Source: Porphyrobacter sp. AAP82 (GTDB taxonomy: Bacteria; Pseudomonadota; Alphaproteobacteria; Sphingomonadales; Sphingomonadaceae). From it: a stretch of 64,000 nucleotides of DNA. The stretch is taken from positions 1 to 64,000 of the forward strand of contig NZ_ANFX01000021.1 of the NCBI RefSeq assembly GCF_000331285.1, given 5' to 3'. Of this stretch, positions 2,640 to 53,147 are shown piece after piece. Position numbers and translations under genes: made by a program. Numbering within the stretch: position 1 is the stretch's first letter; the number at the start of each line of letters is the position of its first letter. The notes beneath the pieces were generated by a model. That model searched no databases. It had not been told where the DNA came from and worked only from the letters and a program-made list of their open reading frames with translations.

Positions 2640-4223
2640 ATGGAAAGTTTCGACTACATCGTCATCGGCGGTGGCAGCGCGGGCAGCGCGGTTGCCGGGC
2701 GGCTCGCGGTGGACGGCACGCGCCGGGTGTGCCTCATCGAAGCGGGCGGGCGCAACGACAACATTCTGGTGAAGACGCCGGGCTTCATGCCCTTCCTGCT
2801 CAAGAACGCGAACTATCGCTACGAGACCGTGCCGCAGAAGGGCTTGGGTGGCCGCACCGGATACCAGCCGCGCGGGCGGGGCCTGGGCGGCTCCTCGGCG
2901 ATCAATGCGATGGTCTATATCCGCGGCAACCGCTGGGATTACGACAACTGGGCGGCCGAGGGCGCGACCGGCTGGGGCTATGACGATGTGCTCCCCTATT
3001 TCAAGCGCGCCGAGGCGAACGAGCGCGGGGGAGATGACTTCCACGGCGCGGGCGGGCCCCTGTTTGTCGAGGACCAGAAATACGCCAACCCGGCGAGCCA
3101 CGCCTTTGTCGAGGCGGCCGCCGCGCTCCAGCTGCGCACCAATGCCGATTTCAACGGCGCGCGGCAGGAGGGCTTCGGGCTCTACCAGGTCACCCAGCAC
3201 AAGGGCGAACGCTGGTCGGCGGCGCGGGCCTATGTGGAGCCGATCCGGCAGCAGGGCAATTTCGCGGTGCGCACCGACACGCTGGTCGAAAAGCTGGTGA
3301 TCGAGGCCGGGCGCGTCATCGGCGTCCGGGTCCGGCGCGGCGGCAAGTCCGAGACGCTGCTCGCGAAGGCCGGCGTGGTGCTGAGCGCAGGCGCGTTCAA
3401 TTCCCCCCAGATCCTGATGCTGTCCGGCATCGGCCCGGCGGAGCATCTCAAGACGCACGGGATCGACGTGGTGCTTGACCGCGCAGGCGTGGGCGGCAAC
3501 CTTCAGGACCATATCGACTATGTCTCGGGCTGGGAGACGCAAAGCGACGTGCCGCTCGGCCAGACGCTCAAGGGCACGCTCAAGATGGCGGCCGCGATCG
3601 TCGAGCACCGCCGCAAGCGGACCGGCACGATGACCACGCCCTATGCGGAAGCGGGCGGGTTCTGGACCGTGATGCCCGAGAGCCCGGCCCCCGACGTGCA
3701 ATGGCATTTCGTCCCCGCGGTGCTCGAGGATCACGGGCGCGAGAAGGTCAAGGCGCACGGCTTCTCGCTCCACGCCTGCGTGCTGCGGCCCGAGAGCCGG
3801 GGGACGGTGCGGCTGGGGAGCGCGGATGCGGCCGCCGCGCCGGTGATCGATCCCAACTTCCTCGATGACGAGCGCGACATGGCGGTTCTGCGCGCCGGCG
3901 TGCGCCTGTCGCACCGCATCGCCGAGGCGCCGCCGCTGCAGGCCTTCGGCCCCAGGGACCGCCACCCCATCGACATGGACGACGACGCCGCGCTCGATGC
4001 GCTGATCCGCGCGCGGGCGGACACGGTCTACCACCCGGTCGGCACCTGCCGCATGGGGAGCGACGCGGACGCCGTGGTCGATCCGAGTCTCAGGCTCAAC
4101 GGGCTCGAGGGCCTGTGGGTGGCGGACGCGAGCGTGATGCCCAAGCTCGTCAGCGGCAACACCAACGCGCCCAGCATCATGATCGGCGAGCGGTGTGCCG
4201 ATTTCGTGATGGCGAGTGAATAG
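2640..4223 (+). CDS. GMC-family FAD oxidoreductase (choline dehydrogenase-like)
   Basis: 527 residues. The N-terminal FAD dinucleotide fold is [20 protein letters not shown] signatures follow: [18 protein letters not shown] (about residues 79-96) and [18 protein letters not shown] (about 250). The C-terminal active-site region is [10 protein letters not shown] with VADASVMP and [15 protein letters not shown]. The family oxidises alcohols with a flavin; sequence alone does not distinguish choline from other alcohols, and no betaine aldehyde dehydrogenase or betI regulator is adjacent. The ATG follows GGGAG at a good distance. The gene stands alone, 15 bases after the large palindromic element. 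Confidence 0.9.
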
Positions 4224-4286
4224 TTTACGCCCTCAAGCGCCGGGCGCGGCCCGTCCGGGCCGCTTGGCTTTCGCGCCATAAGGCGC

Positions 4287-4456
4287 GGCGGCCGTTCGGC
4301 CTTGCGGTCGCTTCGCGCCCGAACCAGAACCCGCCCGATCAGACTGCGCTGATCCGGCCCGCCATCGGACGGGCCGCAAGCGCGACCGCGCGACCGCAGG
4401 CGCCCGGCGCGTAGCGGAGGAACAGCGCCGAGGACGAACGCCCGGAGGGGCGAGCG
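4287..4456 (-). repeat. Dispersed covarying-hairpin element, copy A
   Basis: One of three copies of a structured repeat (others at 34404-34499 and 38577-38732). On the minus strand the shared linker is GTCCTCGGCGCTGTTCC (complement of about 4418-4434). It is flanked by a hairpin at 4439-4452 and a stem 4356-4361 with 4370-4375. The middle hairpin present in the other copies is degenerate here. An extra module at about 4287-4311 is shared with copy C: ggccGTTCggcc here and gcccGTTCgggc there, a compensatory change. The gap 4224-4596 holds this element, a terminator and a GC-rich hairpin, and no convincing gene. Confidence 0.75.
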
Positions 4457-4462
4457 AAAGAC

Positions 4463-4500
4463 AAAAAAGGGCCGGAGACGCATTACGCGGCTCCGGCCTT
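4463..4500 (-). terminator. Intrinsic terminator for glnK-amtB
   Basis: On the minus strand the stem GGCCGGAG (complement of 4491-4498) pairs with CTCCGGCC (complement of 4470-4477). It is followed by a run of six T's (complement of 4463-4468). This lies about 100 bases past the amtB stop and is correctly oriented for that operon. It also sits directly before repeat copy A. Confidence 0.7.
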
Positions 4501-34343: not shown

Positions 34344-34403
34344 AGAAAAACGCCCGGGGTGTTTCCAGCCCGGGCGTCCGATTTCATCATGACGCGATTG
34401 GCC

Positions 34404-34499
34404 GGCCCGAAGGGCCGCGAGCGCACGGCGCGAGCCGCAGGTGCCCGAGCCGGAAAGGCTCGGAACAGCGCCGAGGACGCTCGCCCGGAGGGGCGAGCG
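34404..34499 (-). repeat. Dispersed covarying-hairpin element, copy B (3' of ctrA)
   Basis: Read on the minus strand from 9 bases after the ctrA stop. Hairpin 1 is CGCTCGCCC-CTCC-GGGCGAGCG (complement of 34478-34499). Next come linker GTCCTCGGCGCTGTTCC, hairpin 2 CCGAGCC-TTTCC-GGCTCGG (34445-34463), linker GCACCTGCGGCTCGCGC and hairpin 3 GGCCC-TTC-GGGCC (34404-34416). Linkers match copies A and C closely while stem sequences differ with pairing kept. Hairpin 1 could also serve as a terminator for ctrA. Confidence 0.8.
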
Positions 34500-34508
34500 C
34501 AAAACCCA

Positions 34509-35204
34509 TTACGCCGCTTCGACCTCGGTCTCGCTGTCGCGCAGCACGTAGCCGCGGCCCCAGACGGTCTCGATGTAGTTGTCTCCGCCGCAGGCCAGCG
34601 ACAGCTTCTTGCGCAGCTTGCAGATGAACACGTCGATGATCTTGAGCTCGGGCTCGTCCATCCCGCCGTAAAGGTGGTTGAGGAACATTTCCTTTGTCAG
34701 CGTCGTGCCCTTGCGAAGCGAGAGCAGCTCGAGCATCGCATATTCCTTGCCGGTGAGGTGCACGCGGGCACCATCGACCTCGACCGTCTTGGCATCGAGG
34801 TTCACGGCGAGCTTGCCGGTGCGGATGACCGACTGCGAGTGGCCCTTCGAACGGCGCACCACGGCATAGATGCGGGCGACCAGTTCCTCGCGGTGGAACG
34901 GCTTGGTGACGTAATCGTCTGCGCCGAAGCCGAAGGAGCGGATCTTCGAATCCATCTCGGAAATGCCCGAAAGGATCAGCACCGGGGTCTGCACCTTGGC
35001 GACGCGCAGCTTCTTGAGCACGTCGTAGCCATGCATGTCGGGCAGGTTCAGATCGAGCAGGATGATGTCGTAATCATACAGCTTGCCGAGGTCCAAACCC
35101 TCTTCGCCAAGGTCGGTCGAATAGACGTTGAAGCCTTCGGTGGTGAGCATCAGCTCGATCGCCTTGGCGGTGGTCGGTTCGTCTTCGATGAGCAGAACGC
35201 GCAT
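34509..35204 (-). CDS. ctrA: Cell-cycle response regulator CtrA
   Basis: 231 residues. Receiver domain with acidic pocket EDE, phosphoacceptor Asp51 in [15 protein letters not shown] and Lys in DYVTKPF. The OmpR-type winged helix carries [46 protein letters not shown] and [15 protein letters not shown], diagnostic for CtrA. CtrA is phosphorylated through CckA-ChpT and controls division, motility and replication genes in alphaproteobacteria. The promoter region has two GAnTC methylation sites and two GTTAAC sites (separate entry). No degradation tag is claimed; the C-terminus ends in EVEAA, similar to the Ala-Ala end that ClpXP recognises in Caulobacter CtrA. Confidence 0.97.
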
Positions 35205-38105: not shown

Positions 38106-38483
38106 ATGGTGAATTCTGAAGAGCGCAACCACGGCAAGGCGCTGTCTGCAACCCGGGTGCGGGACTGGCGCAAGGCGATGAGCGATCATGTCGCCTATGG
38201 CCTGCTCGCCTACACCGCGTTGCAGATCTTCGTGACCGTCAAGGCGCTGGCCGAGGGTTCCTCGACGGGGCTTCCCTACCTTGCACTGATCGTACTGGTC
38301 GCCGGGATCATTCCGGTGTGCCGCTGGTTCGAGAAGCGCTGGGCGGTGCTCGGCGATGCCGAGGCCGCCGACCCTGCGCTCGCGGGCGAATTCCGCCGCG
38401 ACGTCATTGCGCTGTGGGCCATGGCGATCGGCCTGCCCTTCGGGCTGACGCTGATCTTCAAGATGTTGCTGGAAGTGTTTTGA
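38106..38483 (+). CDS. Membrane protein of unknown function
   Basis: 125 residues with three probable membrane segments: HVAYGLLAYTALQIFVTV, LPYLALIVLVAGIIPV and VIALWAMAIGLPFGLTLIF. Between the second and third is a polar loop with WFEKRWAVLGDAEAADPALAGEFRRD. The basic N-terminus (RVRDWRKAMSDH) suggests a cytoplasmic N-end. The ATG at 38106 is chosen over an upstream Arg-rich extension. No family recognised; similar short proteins occur next to lpt genes in sphingomonads from memory. Confidence 0.75.
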   Translation: MVNSEERNHGKALSATRVRDWRKAMSDHVAYGLLAYTALQIFVTVKALAEGSSTGLPYLALIVLVAGIIPVCRWFEKRWAVLGDAEAADPALAGEFRRDVIALWAMAIGLPFGLTLIFKMLLEVF

Positions 38484-38576
38484 TGGGGTGCCCGCCTCCG
38501 CGGGTATCCTTGTGTTTTGCAGCCCCTGCGGGCTGCGAAATCCTCGCTCACGGGGCCTGACGGCCCCATCGCTGCG

Positions 38577-38732
38577 GGCGCCCGTTCGGGCTTGCGGACG
38601 CTAAAGCGACCGATCCCAGCGCATACCACTCATGTTGGCACTGGTTCGGCCCACAGGGCCGCGAGCGCACGCGCGCGAGCCGCAGGTGCCCCGTGGCGCT
38701 AGCCACGGGAACAGCACCGAGGACGGGCCCGC
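38577..38732 (-). repeat. Dispersed covarying-hairpin element, copy C (3' of ppa)
   Basis: Directly after the ppa stop on the minus strand come the linker GTCCTCGGTGCTGTT, hairpin 2 CCCGTGGC-TAGC-GCCACGGG (complement of 38690-38709), linker GCACCTGCGGCTCGCGC and hairpin 3 GGCCC-TGT-GGGCC (38648-38660). Hairpin 1 is reduced to GGGCCC. The extra module shared with copy A is at 38577-38601. The rest of the 38484-38734 gap has further short GC stems and no gene. Confidence 0.8.
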
Positions 38733-38734
38733 AA

Positions 38735-39265
38735 TCAGGAAGTCTTATACCGCTCGATCGCCTCGACGGTGATCTTGCGCGCTTCGGAGGCATCGCCCCA
38801 CTTGCCGACGCGCACCCACTTTTCGGCTTCCAAGTCCTTGTAGTGGGTGAAGAAGTGTTCGATCTGCTGGAAGATGATGCTCGGCAGGTCGGTGGTTTCC
38901 TTGACCTCGGCGTAATAGGGGAAGGTCTCGTTCACCGGCACGCAGACCAGCTTCTCGTCGCCGCCCTGCTCGTCTTCCAGATTGAGCACGCCGATCGGCC
39001 GCGCGCGCACCACGCAGCCCGGGATGAAGGGCGAGCGCGAGATCACCAGCGCATCGAGCGGGTCGCCATCGGGGCTGAGCGTGTGCGGCACGAAGCCGTA
39101 ATTGGCCGGATAGCGCATCGGGGTGTGGAGGATGCGGTCGACGAACAGCGCCCCGCTTTCCTTGTCGAACTCGTACTTCACCGGCTCCCCGCCGGTCGGC
39201 ACCTCGATGATCACGTTGAGATCGTCGGGGGGGTTCACGCCGGTGGGAATCTTGTCGATGCGCAT
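38735..39265 (-). CDS. ppa: Inorganic pyrophosphatase (family I)
   Basis: 176 residues. Active-site signature: KYEFDKESGALFVDRILHTPM, YPANYGFVPHTLSPDGDPLDALV with its cluster of metal-binding Asp residues, and VIEVPTGGEPVKYE at the N-terminus. It hydrolyses pyrophosphate to drive biosynthesis. It stands between a convergent-side repeat and divergent hisS, with the ATG at 39265 giving the full family I length. Confidence 0.97.
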   Translation of the reverse strand: MRIDKIPTGVNPPDDLNVIIEVPTGGEPVKYEFDKESGALFVDRILHTPMRYPANYGFVPHTLSPDGDPLDALVISRSPFIPGCVVRARPIGVLNLEDEQGGDEKLVCVPVNETFPYYAEVKETTDLPSIIFQQIEHFFTHYKDLEAEKWVRVGKWGDASEARKITVEAIERYKTS

Positions 39266-52779: not shown

Positions 52780-53040
52780 ATCAACTTTCATGTTGCGACG
52801 CAAAACGGTCACAAAGGCATTTTTTGCCCAATCTTTGAGCGACTGCCGCCGATTTGGGCAGAAATTTGCAAGTTTGCGCACAAATTTGCACCGAAATGGG
52901 TGTTGATTGCACTCTTTGCAACGAACTACGCGTCTTTCGCACTTGCACAATCGGCTCATCTGCGGCATTTGGAAGGTGCCTTTCAGGCATCCTCTCCCAA
53001 ACTTTCCAAGCCCGGTGCCTCGCACCGGGCTTTTTTCTTG
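52780..53040 (+). ncRNA. Candidate small RNA: AT-rich block ending in a strong terminator
   Basis: The 481-base gap between scoA and the Cdc48-like gene has no convincing protein. From about 52780 the sequence turns AT-rich against the high-GC surroundings. It includes the stem TGCCCAATC...GATTTGGGCA (about 52825-52863) and repeated AAATTTGCA, and ends at a perfect intrinsic terminator (53008-53036). A short frame beginning LIALFATNYASFALAQS is possible but would read through the terminator. Promoter not identified; 52667-52779 holds nothing else. Confidence 0.4.
53008..53036 (+). terminator. Strong intrinsic terminator
   Basis: aagcccggtgc and gcaccgggctt form an 11-bp stem with a 3-base loop (53008-53032), followed by TTTTTT to 53036. 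It is oriented for plus-strand transcripts, yet the only annotated plus-strand gene nearby begins 110 bases downstream. This implies an upstream transcript. Confidence 0.9.
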
Positions 53041-53147
53041 CCGGTTGGCGCTACCGCTCGGCCGGCTCCGCGCGCCCCGTCCCGATTGCATTCGGCTCCC
53101 CCCCTTCCTAGCTTGGCGGTCAACCACCGCTTGGACAGGACTGCCCC

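Follow-up and report, generated by a model that had tools for sequence, protein, structure and literature searches.

The window, a stretch of 64,000 nt from Porphyrobacter sp. AAP82, carries members of a repeat family whose unit is a chain of four hairpins spanning about 100 nt. We hold it probable, at roughly 60%, that these units are dispersed, non-autonomous palindromic elements similar to REP/BIME repeats and copied as a folded single strand. The unit family is real and widespread; in the genomes sampled, it occurs only in one genus and in part of the family to which that genus belongs.

Copies A (4287-4456), B (34404-34499) and C (38577-38732), which a sequence-only reading had proposed as one element in a single orientation, are all present in the window in like orientation. 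They match R1, a covariance model built from 15 copies of the window's own genome, at E values of 6e-12 to 2e-10, and all three belong to the R1 training set. The first shared linker, GGAACAGCGCCGAGGAC, lies at three window sites with at most one mismatch. Allowing up to three mismatches gives 7 window matches against 0.53 expected; at one mismatch or fewer the linker occurs 18 times in the 2.9-Mb genome, where a reversed control pattern gives 0. The second linker said to be shared is exact in B and C only, A having GCGCCTGCGG instead. A further module with a GTTC loop, assigned to A and C, is present but proves to be a second unit on the plus strand, making inverted pairs. We count five units in the window, not three, the type III unit being a weak match (E 2e-4) recognized by eye. 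At A, a type I unit faces a type III unit, and at C a type I unit faces a type II unit. The features are as follows (S, hairpin; L, linker; P5, linker-linker helix; R2, type II model).

34478-34500, minus strand: S1 of unit B, CGCTCGCCC/GGGCGAGCG, loop CTCC, 8 nt after the ctrA stop codon (34509-34511)
34462-34477, minus strand: L1 of unit B, TCCTCGGCGCTGTTCC
34468-34472, minus strand: GGCGC of helix P5 of unit B, facing GCACC of L2; the middle pair is a C-A combination
34445-34463, minus strand: S2 of unit B, CCGAGCC/GGCTCGG
34435-34444, minus strand: L2 of unit B, GCACCTGCGG
34421-34431, minus strand: S3 of unit B, short, GCGC/GCGC
34403-34417, minus strand: S4 of unit B, CGGCCC TTC GGGCCG
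34344-34376, minus strand: ctrA intrinsic terminator, hairpin plus TTTTT, downstream of and outside unit B
4355-4456, minus strand: unit A- (type I), with S1 at 4435-4456 (two mismatched pairs), L1 at 4419-4434, S2 at 4403-4420, S3 at 4380-4391 and S4 at 4355-4376
about 4229-4321, plus strand: unit A+ (type III, head type by eye), R2 match at 4242-4307 with E 2e-4
4462-4498, minus strand: amtB intrinsic terminator, strong, with U-tract, outside the unit (order: amtB stop, terminator, unit A-)
38647-38731, minus strand: unit C- (type I), behind the ppa stop, with a collapsed S1 at 38724-38731, L1 at 38708-38723, S2 at 38690-38709 (CCCGTGGC/GCCACGGG), S3 at 38665-38676 and S4 at 38647-38661
38519-38612, plus strand: unit C+ (type II), R2 E 5e-19, in the R2 training set, with S1 at 38519-38536, AAATCCTCGCTCA at 38538-38550, S2 at 38552-38567, S3 at 38580-38591 and S4 at 38595-38612

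Pfam matches agree, within their reach, with the gene names given to the upstream neighbors amtB, ctrA and ppa (ammonium transporter, response regulator with Trans_reg_C, and pyrophosphatase, respectively), the label ctrA being that of the sequence-only reading. B and C lie directly behind their genes and begin within about 10 bases of the stop, as had been stated; unit C- ends at 38731 and the ppa stop is at 38735-38737. Copy A, placed behind amtB by the same account, starts 137 nt past the amtB stop and beyond a terminator, outside the proper amtB 3′UTR. On its other side is a plus-strand GMC oxidoreductase gene (Pfam, 2640-4223), whose stop (4223) is directly followed by unit A+ with its GCCCTCAAGCGCCGGGCGC head and the usual S3-TTGCGG-S4 tail. 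Unit C+ stands behind a plus-strand gene ending at 38483, with an extra hairpin (38489-38506) in between. The stems do stay paired in general, except that S1 of copy C is a loop-less palindrome, CGGG/CCCG. The long linkers are not all single-stranded, since L1 (GGYGC) pairs with L2 (GCRCC). The idea that S1 of copy A joins two S1 alleles was dropped; its right arm has no single partner allele.

The unit can be written S1-[P5-S2]-S3-S4, with S1 nearest the gene. From the stop codon, a type I unit runs through a T-rich stretch (roughly YTTTGTT, just upstream of the model start), S1, L1 (TCCTCGGYGCTGTTCC), S2, L2 (GGGCRCCTGCGG), S3, TTGCGG or TCGCGG, and S4; its S1 loop is CTCC in 87 and ATCC in 52 of 170 parsed units. 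Type II heads consist of S1, AAATCCTCGCTCA, S2 and RTCGCTGCGG, and type III heads read GCCCTCAAGCGCCGGGCGC..., types I and II being assigned by model and type III by eye. All three types end in the common S3-TTGCGG-S4 module, and head types can substitute for one another at one site. Across 165 distinct units, the middle position of P5 (GGYGC/GCRCC) is TA in 104, CG in 37, CA in 12, GC in 10, TG in 1 and TT in 1. Among 126 parsed S4 hairpins, 29 of the 46 triloops are TNC in the sense strand. GNA triloops form stable mini-hairpins in single-stranded DNA, and the antisense GNA triloops of S4 are suggestive of such structures; several would equally form UNCG loops in RNA, and the triloops are not taken as proof. 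Apparent pyrimidine-purine pairing at the foot of type II S2 (alignment A5, by eye) is dominated by T-G and C-A and was not counted as a pair.

Single units depart from this plan. One own-genome copy (L153, C7:13667-13752) has an inverted S1 loop, GGAG for CTCC, the sole case in 170 parsed units. In two others (L001 at C13:52102-52199, and C13:167366-167457), S2 holds palindromes like CCCCGGATCAAGTCCGGGG. Genome G186, without a unit behind ppa, has a similar palindrome at that place. This gives the appearance of one repeat family inserted into another.

Related genomes hold plenty of further copies, whose presence was one of the checks set by the sequence-only reading. Both R1 and R2 exclude S4 because the MAFFT alignment A1 misaligned S3 and S4. 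In the own genome (2.9 Mb), R1 gives at least 85 matches at E≤10 and at least 63 at E≤0.01, counts that are lower bounds since 150 of 7223 candidates were scored. Matches occur in at least 34 of 149 family genomes, with at most 29 candidates scored per genome, and in 40 of 41 genus genomes, where the number per genome ranges from 0 to 52. In a 240-genome sample of the class, R1 matched two genomes, both of the window's genus, and none outside it, and R2 matched the identical two; the wide genome searches used stricter filters, under which weak matches can be lost. R1 was also run on 100 of at least 118 named loci sharing the 17-mer pattern, and 34 of the 100 carry a unit at E≤0.01. The records of these 34 are titled Erythrobacter, Sphingomonadales, or genera of the Erythrobacteraceae (Alteraurantiacibacter, Porphyrobacter, Croceibacterium, Tsuneonella and others). 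Loci of Pseudomonas, Streptomyces and other taxa among the 100 tested with R1 have no unit.

The counts given below use 76 of the 85 own-genome matches (9 under 25 bits excluded), 106 of 108 among the family matches listed (2 duplicate places excluded) and 41 of 51 from named loci (10 under 60 bits excluded); the named-locus and family sets overlap in part. Two own-genome copies at separate loci are 98.8% alike across 84 nt. Several own-genome contigs end at or inside units (C14:1-66, C50:3-53, C29:99510-99558 and C35:95042-95093), so the assembly seems to break there and the true copy number may be higher. Searched with 107 bp around unit B, neither the plasmid nor the phage collection gave a match, and carriage by these was set aside. 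Among the titles and abstract openings listed from the open-licence literature, none describes this family in Erythrobacteraceae.

Covariation of the stems, a second such check, exceeds shuffled expectation in every set. Double-changed cells number 52 against 18.6±3.1 in 15 own copies (reached by 0 of 500 shuffles), 40 against 14±2.3 in 13 type II copies, and 352 against 97±7 (0 of 500) in 97 family units, whose alignment was made to the model and leans towards its structure. The weakest measure in the latter set, further pair types, gives 45 against 40.3, a value that 27 of 500 shuffles reach. Eight orthologous units behind ctrA show 28 double-changed cells against 10.4±2.2 and 14 pair types against 10.5 (9 of 500 shuffles reach this), with S1 and S2 100% paired. 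Their alignment (A4) takes eight of 11 type I units, without G158 (incomplete), G174 and G181 (degenerate), and S3 is misaligned in two of its eight rows. Slid controls are low in all tests. The shuffles keep relatedness; the stronger argument lies in the orthologous units and in the S1 stems, of which 170 parsed units have 89 distinct ones.

The units are also set behind genes in a fixed orientation. In 60 of 74 own, 75 of 105 family and 34 of 40 named units, unit and nearest upstream gene share a strand. Counting against this placement, 50 of 221 units overall have an opposite-strand gene as their nearest upstream neighbor. Starts fall -5 to 15 nt from a same-strand stop in 34/74, 51/105 and 24/40, far above the 4.8% obtained by random placement in window gaps of at least 90 nt; the preference for gene 3′ ends, the remaining check, is thereby borne out. 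Downstream neighbors lie on the same and opposite strands in 17 and 17 cases in the own genome (at least 60 bits), 36 and 69 in the family set, and 19 and 20 in the named set. Overlap with a called gene exceeds 30 nt in only 1 of 76 units. Another unit lies within 260 nt of 64 of 221 units (orientations pooled), and at A, at C and in the ppa orthologs inverted pairs sit where two genes converge.

A same-strand tRNA gene is the nearest upstream gene for 10 of 171 units (at least 60 bits), and an opposite-strand one for 1. Nine of the 10 lie at 6-38 nt (one a duplicate record) and one at 328 nt; units L162, L174, L309 and L312 (starts at 1501, 1501, 1197 and 1244) stand 6-13 nt behind their tRNA genes. 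The address is thus "gene end" and not only "stop codon". A role tied to translation or mRNA 3′UTRs alone does not fit these tRNA-adjacent units, which weaken a translation-only function.

The ctrA and ppa loci were each read in 30 of the 41 genus genomes. At ctrA, the core was flagged by script in nine genomes, and inspection by eye added G162 and a degenerate G181, giving 11 type I units. By eye as well, G175 has a type III unit at the equivalent place, G178 and G172 keep a tail remnant, and 16 of the 30 genomes have no recognizable unit. A terminator-type hairpin, CGCCCGGG...CCCGGGCG, with a T-run of variable length, lies downstream in most ctrA loci with or without a unit (by eye). Empty and filled ctrA sites are too diverged to define a target-site duplication of the kind that marks a MITE; inverted pairs of units do occur.

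At ppa, S2 is CCCGTGGC/GCCACGGG in G000, G164, G172, G151, G177 and G185, with loops that vary across the locus (TAGC, TTGC, TCAC, TGGT and GTGC). In G169 the stem is a variant that differs in its outer bases, and in G174 it carries a double change, CCCGTTGC/GCAACGGG. S1 is of the GCAGCCGC type in G169, G177 and G185, with GGGCCCGC and AAACCCGC also found and a shorter form in G174; it is paired save for one mismatch in G169, collapsed in G000 and lost in G151. The opposite unit is type II in G000, G169, G164, G177 and G185 and type I in G172. Orthologous sites that are filled in some genomes and empty in others, or filled with another head type, favor dispersed elements. The persistence of some units at orthologous sites across species also fits retained function.

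The composition of S1 bears on the level at which pairing is maintained. In the 170 of 223 units that were parsed, S1 has 1409 Watson-Crick, 14 GT, 27 AC and 7 other combinations (of 1457). The corresponding figures for 57 terminator-like hairpins from the same loci are 480, 63, 33 and 24 (of 600; GT about 10%), under a common scoring that makes no difference between GT and AC; a best-hairpin finder, which favors paired stems, supplied both sets, and the terminator set includes a few unit hairpins. GT is rarer in S1 (Fisher p about 2e-22, the units not being independent). This near-absence of G-U points to pairing or copying at the DNA level rather than to selection on sense RNA, and is an argument for S1 being maintained as a palindrome in DNA, whether through selection on the folded form or through template switching. 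As to the strand, the evidence is mixed: S4 (GT 34, AC 19) leans opposite to S1 (GT 14, AC 27) and to P5 (T-G 1, C-A 12, where C-A equals G-U on the other strand). The S2 and S3 pair counts, obtained by a crude parse, carry no weight here.

The sequence-only reading had seen in the copies a structured 3′UTR RNA of the upstream gene, whose mRNA hairpins, under selection as RNA, would control decay or slow the terminating ribosome. The copies, their covariation and their 3′-end placement all hold; support for the mechanism is weaker. The fixed orientation, the narrow spacing from stop codons and the retention of units at ctrA and ppa in several species favor this account, and the sense strands of B (z -2.75) and C+ (z -3.74) fold better than shuffles. 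We nevertheless consider it unlikely: B has an even stronger fold on its antisense strand (z -4.01), folding of A- (z -0.86) and C- (z -1.38) is not significant, S1 almost lacks G-U pairs, C-A outnumbers T-G in P5, units also stand behind tRNA genes, and unit A- lies beyond a terminator. Membership in a known Rfam RNA family was rejected, with no unit of the window matched at the gathering threshold, where the only match lies elsewhere, and a single chance-level match, outside the unit, in five loci at E≤1. The same reading had put repeats aside ("rather than random repeats"), and dispersed repeats of a REP/BIME-like kind are what the units are.

If the units are such REP/BIME-like elements, the folded single strand, as single-stranded DNA or cruciform, would be the form that is recognized and copied. 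The stems would stay complementary through selection acting on the DNA hairpin, through template-switch correction and recombination among copies, or through both, and loops and linkers would be held by sequence-specific recognition. The spreading enzyme would be something other than a PF01797-type RAYT of the own genome. Many units would become the first 3′UTR stretch of the upstream gene, where they may act like E. coli REPs near stops by blocking 3′ exonucleases or slowing the terminating ribosome; convergent pairs may insulate or absorb supercoiling. REPs less than 16 nt from a stop codon are reported to lower translation (PMC12306157, citing Liang 2015), and by analogy lowered translation would be the likeliest consequence of units near stop codons.

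A more far-reaching possibility, quite unlikely in our estimate, is a self-rewriting 3′-end element. Here, a system acting on one DNA strand would recognize the shape of a hairpin and the sequence of its loop but not that of its stem, and would set units directly behind protein and tRNA genes with fixed polarity. Stems would continually be rewritten as perfect palindromes through template switching or snap-back copying, and heads exchanged between types at one site.

Template switching and gene conversion could also keep the stems of decaying repeats perfect without any function, and template switching has been proposed as a maker and keeper of perfect stems (PMC8794818). The multi-base compensated changes with few intermediates at the orthologous ctrA site accord with this, as does the inverted S1 loop of one copy, which template-switch copying could leave. 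Such a purely mutational origin is nonetheless distinctly improbable, as it leaves unexplained the constant loops and linkers beside drifting stems, the fixed orientation behind gene ends, and the stable ppa S2 stem with its changing loop.

A GC-rich S1 hairpin directly behind a gene would suit an intrinsic terminator, the other function proposed by the sequence-only reading, but this is very improbable. No U-tract was found behind S1 (an uncounted observation; in type I, S1 passes into L1 by model construction), and the T-rich stretch precedes S1. The window has separate U-tract terminators, among them the ctrA hairpin with TTTTT downstream of unit B, and a like hairpin occurs in relatives with and without the unit (by eye).

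The closest known kind is the REP/BIME repeats, especially the CGTC repeats without a transposase. Like REP/BIME repeats in general, the units are multi-copy, intergenic, palindromic and dispersed, follow the 3′ ends of ORFs, whether the adjoining genes are convergent or co-directional, and are frequently paired. A REP is a single hairpin of 20-40 bp, whereas here four hairpins extend over about 100 nt, and unit length, tag and composite build differ. In position the unit is REP-like, and its effect is probably so too. RIME (Rhizobium-specific intergenic mosaic elements; a title cited in PMC2873474) are mosaic intergenic elements in Alphaproteobacteria, and the units bear a likeness to them by that description.

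The available text on CGTC REPs (Di Nocera et al. 2013, PMC3733652) describes palindromic intergenic repeats of Alphaproteobacteria, including sphingomonads, mostly arranged as inverted (HH) pairs; for the majority of conv-REPs in S. wittichii, the distance to the 3′ end of each of the two ORFs is less than 20 bp. The same text names no dedicated transposase and states mobilization as an open question. Inverted pairing and position at ORF 3′ ends are shared with our units. Sub-families with alternative complementary stem residues are reported as well (PMC3733652), so stem variation as such is not new. CGTC REPs are single hairpins with an unpaired CGTC (TGTC, CCTC) tag, an 8-9 bp stem starting AT, a loop of 4-5 and a CCA-like tail (PMC3733652), in contrast to the four hairpins plus linker-linker helix (about 100 nt) found here. 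The CGTC/AT/CCA anatomy occurs in 0 of 223 units on both strands under a loose pattern of our own, not the consensus figure of the paper. Because it lacks both the single-hairpin build and these features, the unit is not filed as a CGTC REP. GT pairing is described as common in REP stems and as a frequent finding in GTAG repeats (PMC3733652), whereas it is rare in S1. The text also mentions REPs inside E. 'lithoralis' genes without giving sequence, so overlap with a family of PMC3733652 is possible.

The BIME mosaics of E. coli likewise join palindromes and linkers at gene 3′ ends, but differ in length and composition and are accompanied by TnpA-REP (PMC8266576), for which the own genome gives no match. 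REP-like placement and inverted pairing aside, a classical RAYT-driven REP system hardly merits credence, given that PF01797 (Y1/RAYT) has 0 matches in the own genome and shows no association in the family (4 of 34 unit-positive versus 20 of 115 unit-negative genomes), the unit-rich G014, G016, G054, G092 and G103 not being among the 24 positive genomes. A RepRanger table lists 3,055 predicted REPs in Erythrobacter cryptus DSM 12079, and the available text describes no Erythrobacter family (PMC12306157). A record of this strain carries a unit (L116), and single hairpins of the unit family may be among those predictions.

The family is a large addition to the palindromic repeats without a known transposase. 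Its free stems, fixed loops and an S1 almost without G-U help to separate DNA-level from RNA-level causes of covariation, and they caution against taking strong covariation to prove that an RNA is functional. Sister species that have or lack units behind ctrA and ppa offer natural experiments on the function of gene-end repeats.

Other elements were seen in the window. The Rfam match above the gathering threshold is to the suhB/mmgR sRNA (RF00519) at 52971-53046 on the plus strand, with 49.5 bits. An intergenic inverted repeat at 46644-46680/46700-46736 (37 nt, 89% complementary, CCCCTCCCGCAAGCGGGAGGGG) is apparently another palindromic repeat. A second, at 2358-2389/2593-2624 (32 nt, 94% complementary, 203 nt apart), precedes the GMC oxidoreductase gene.
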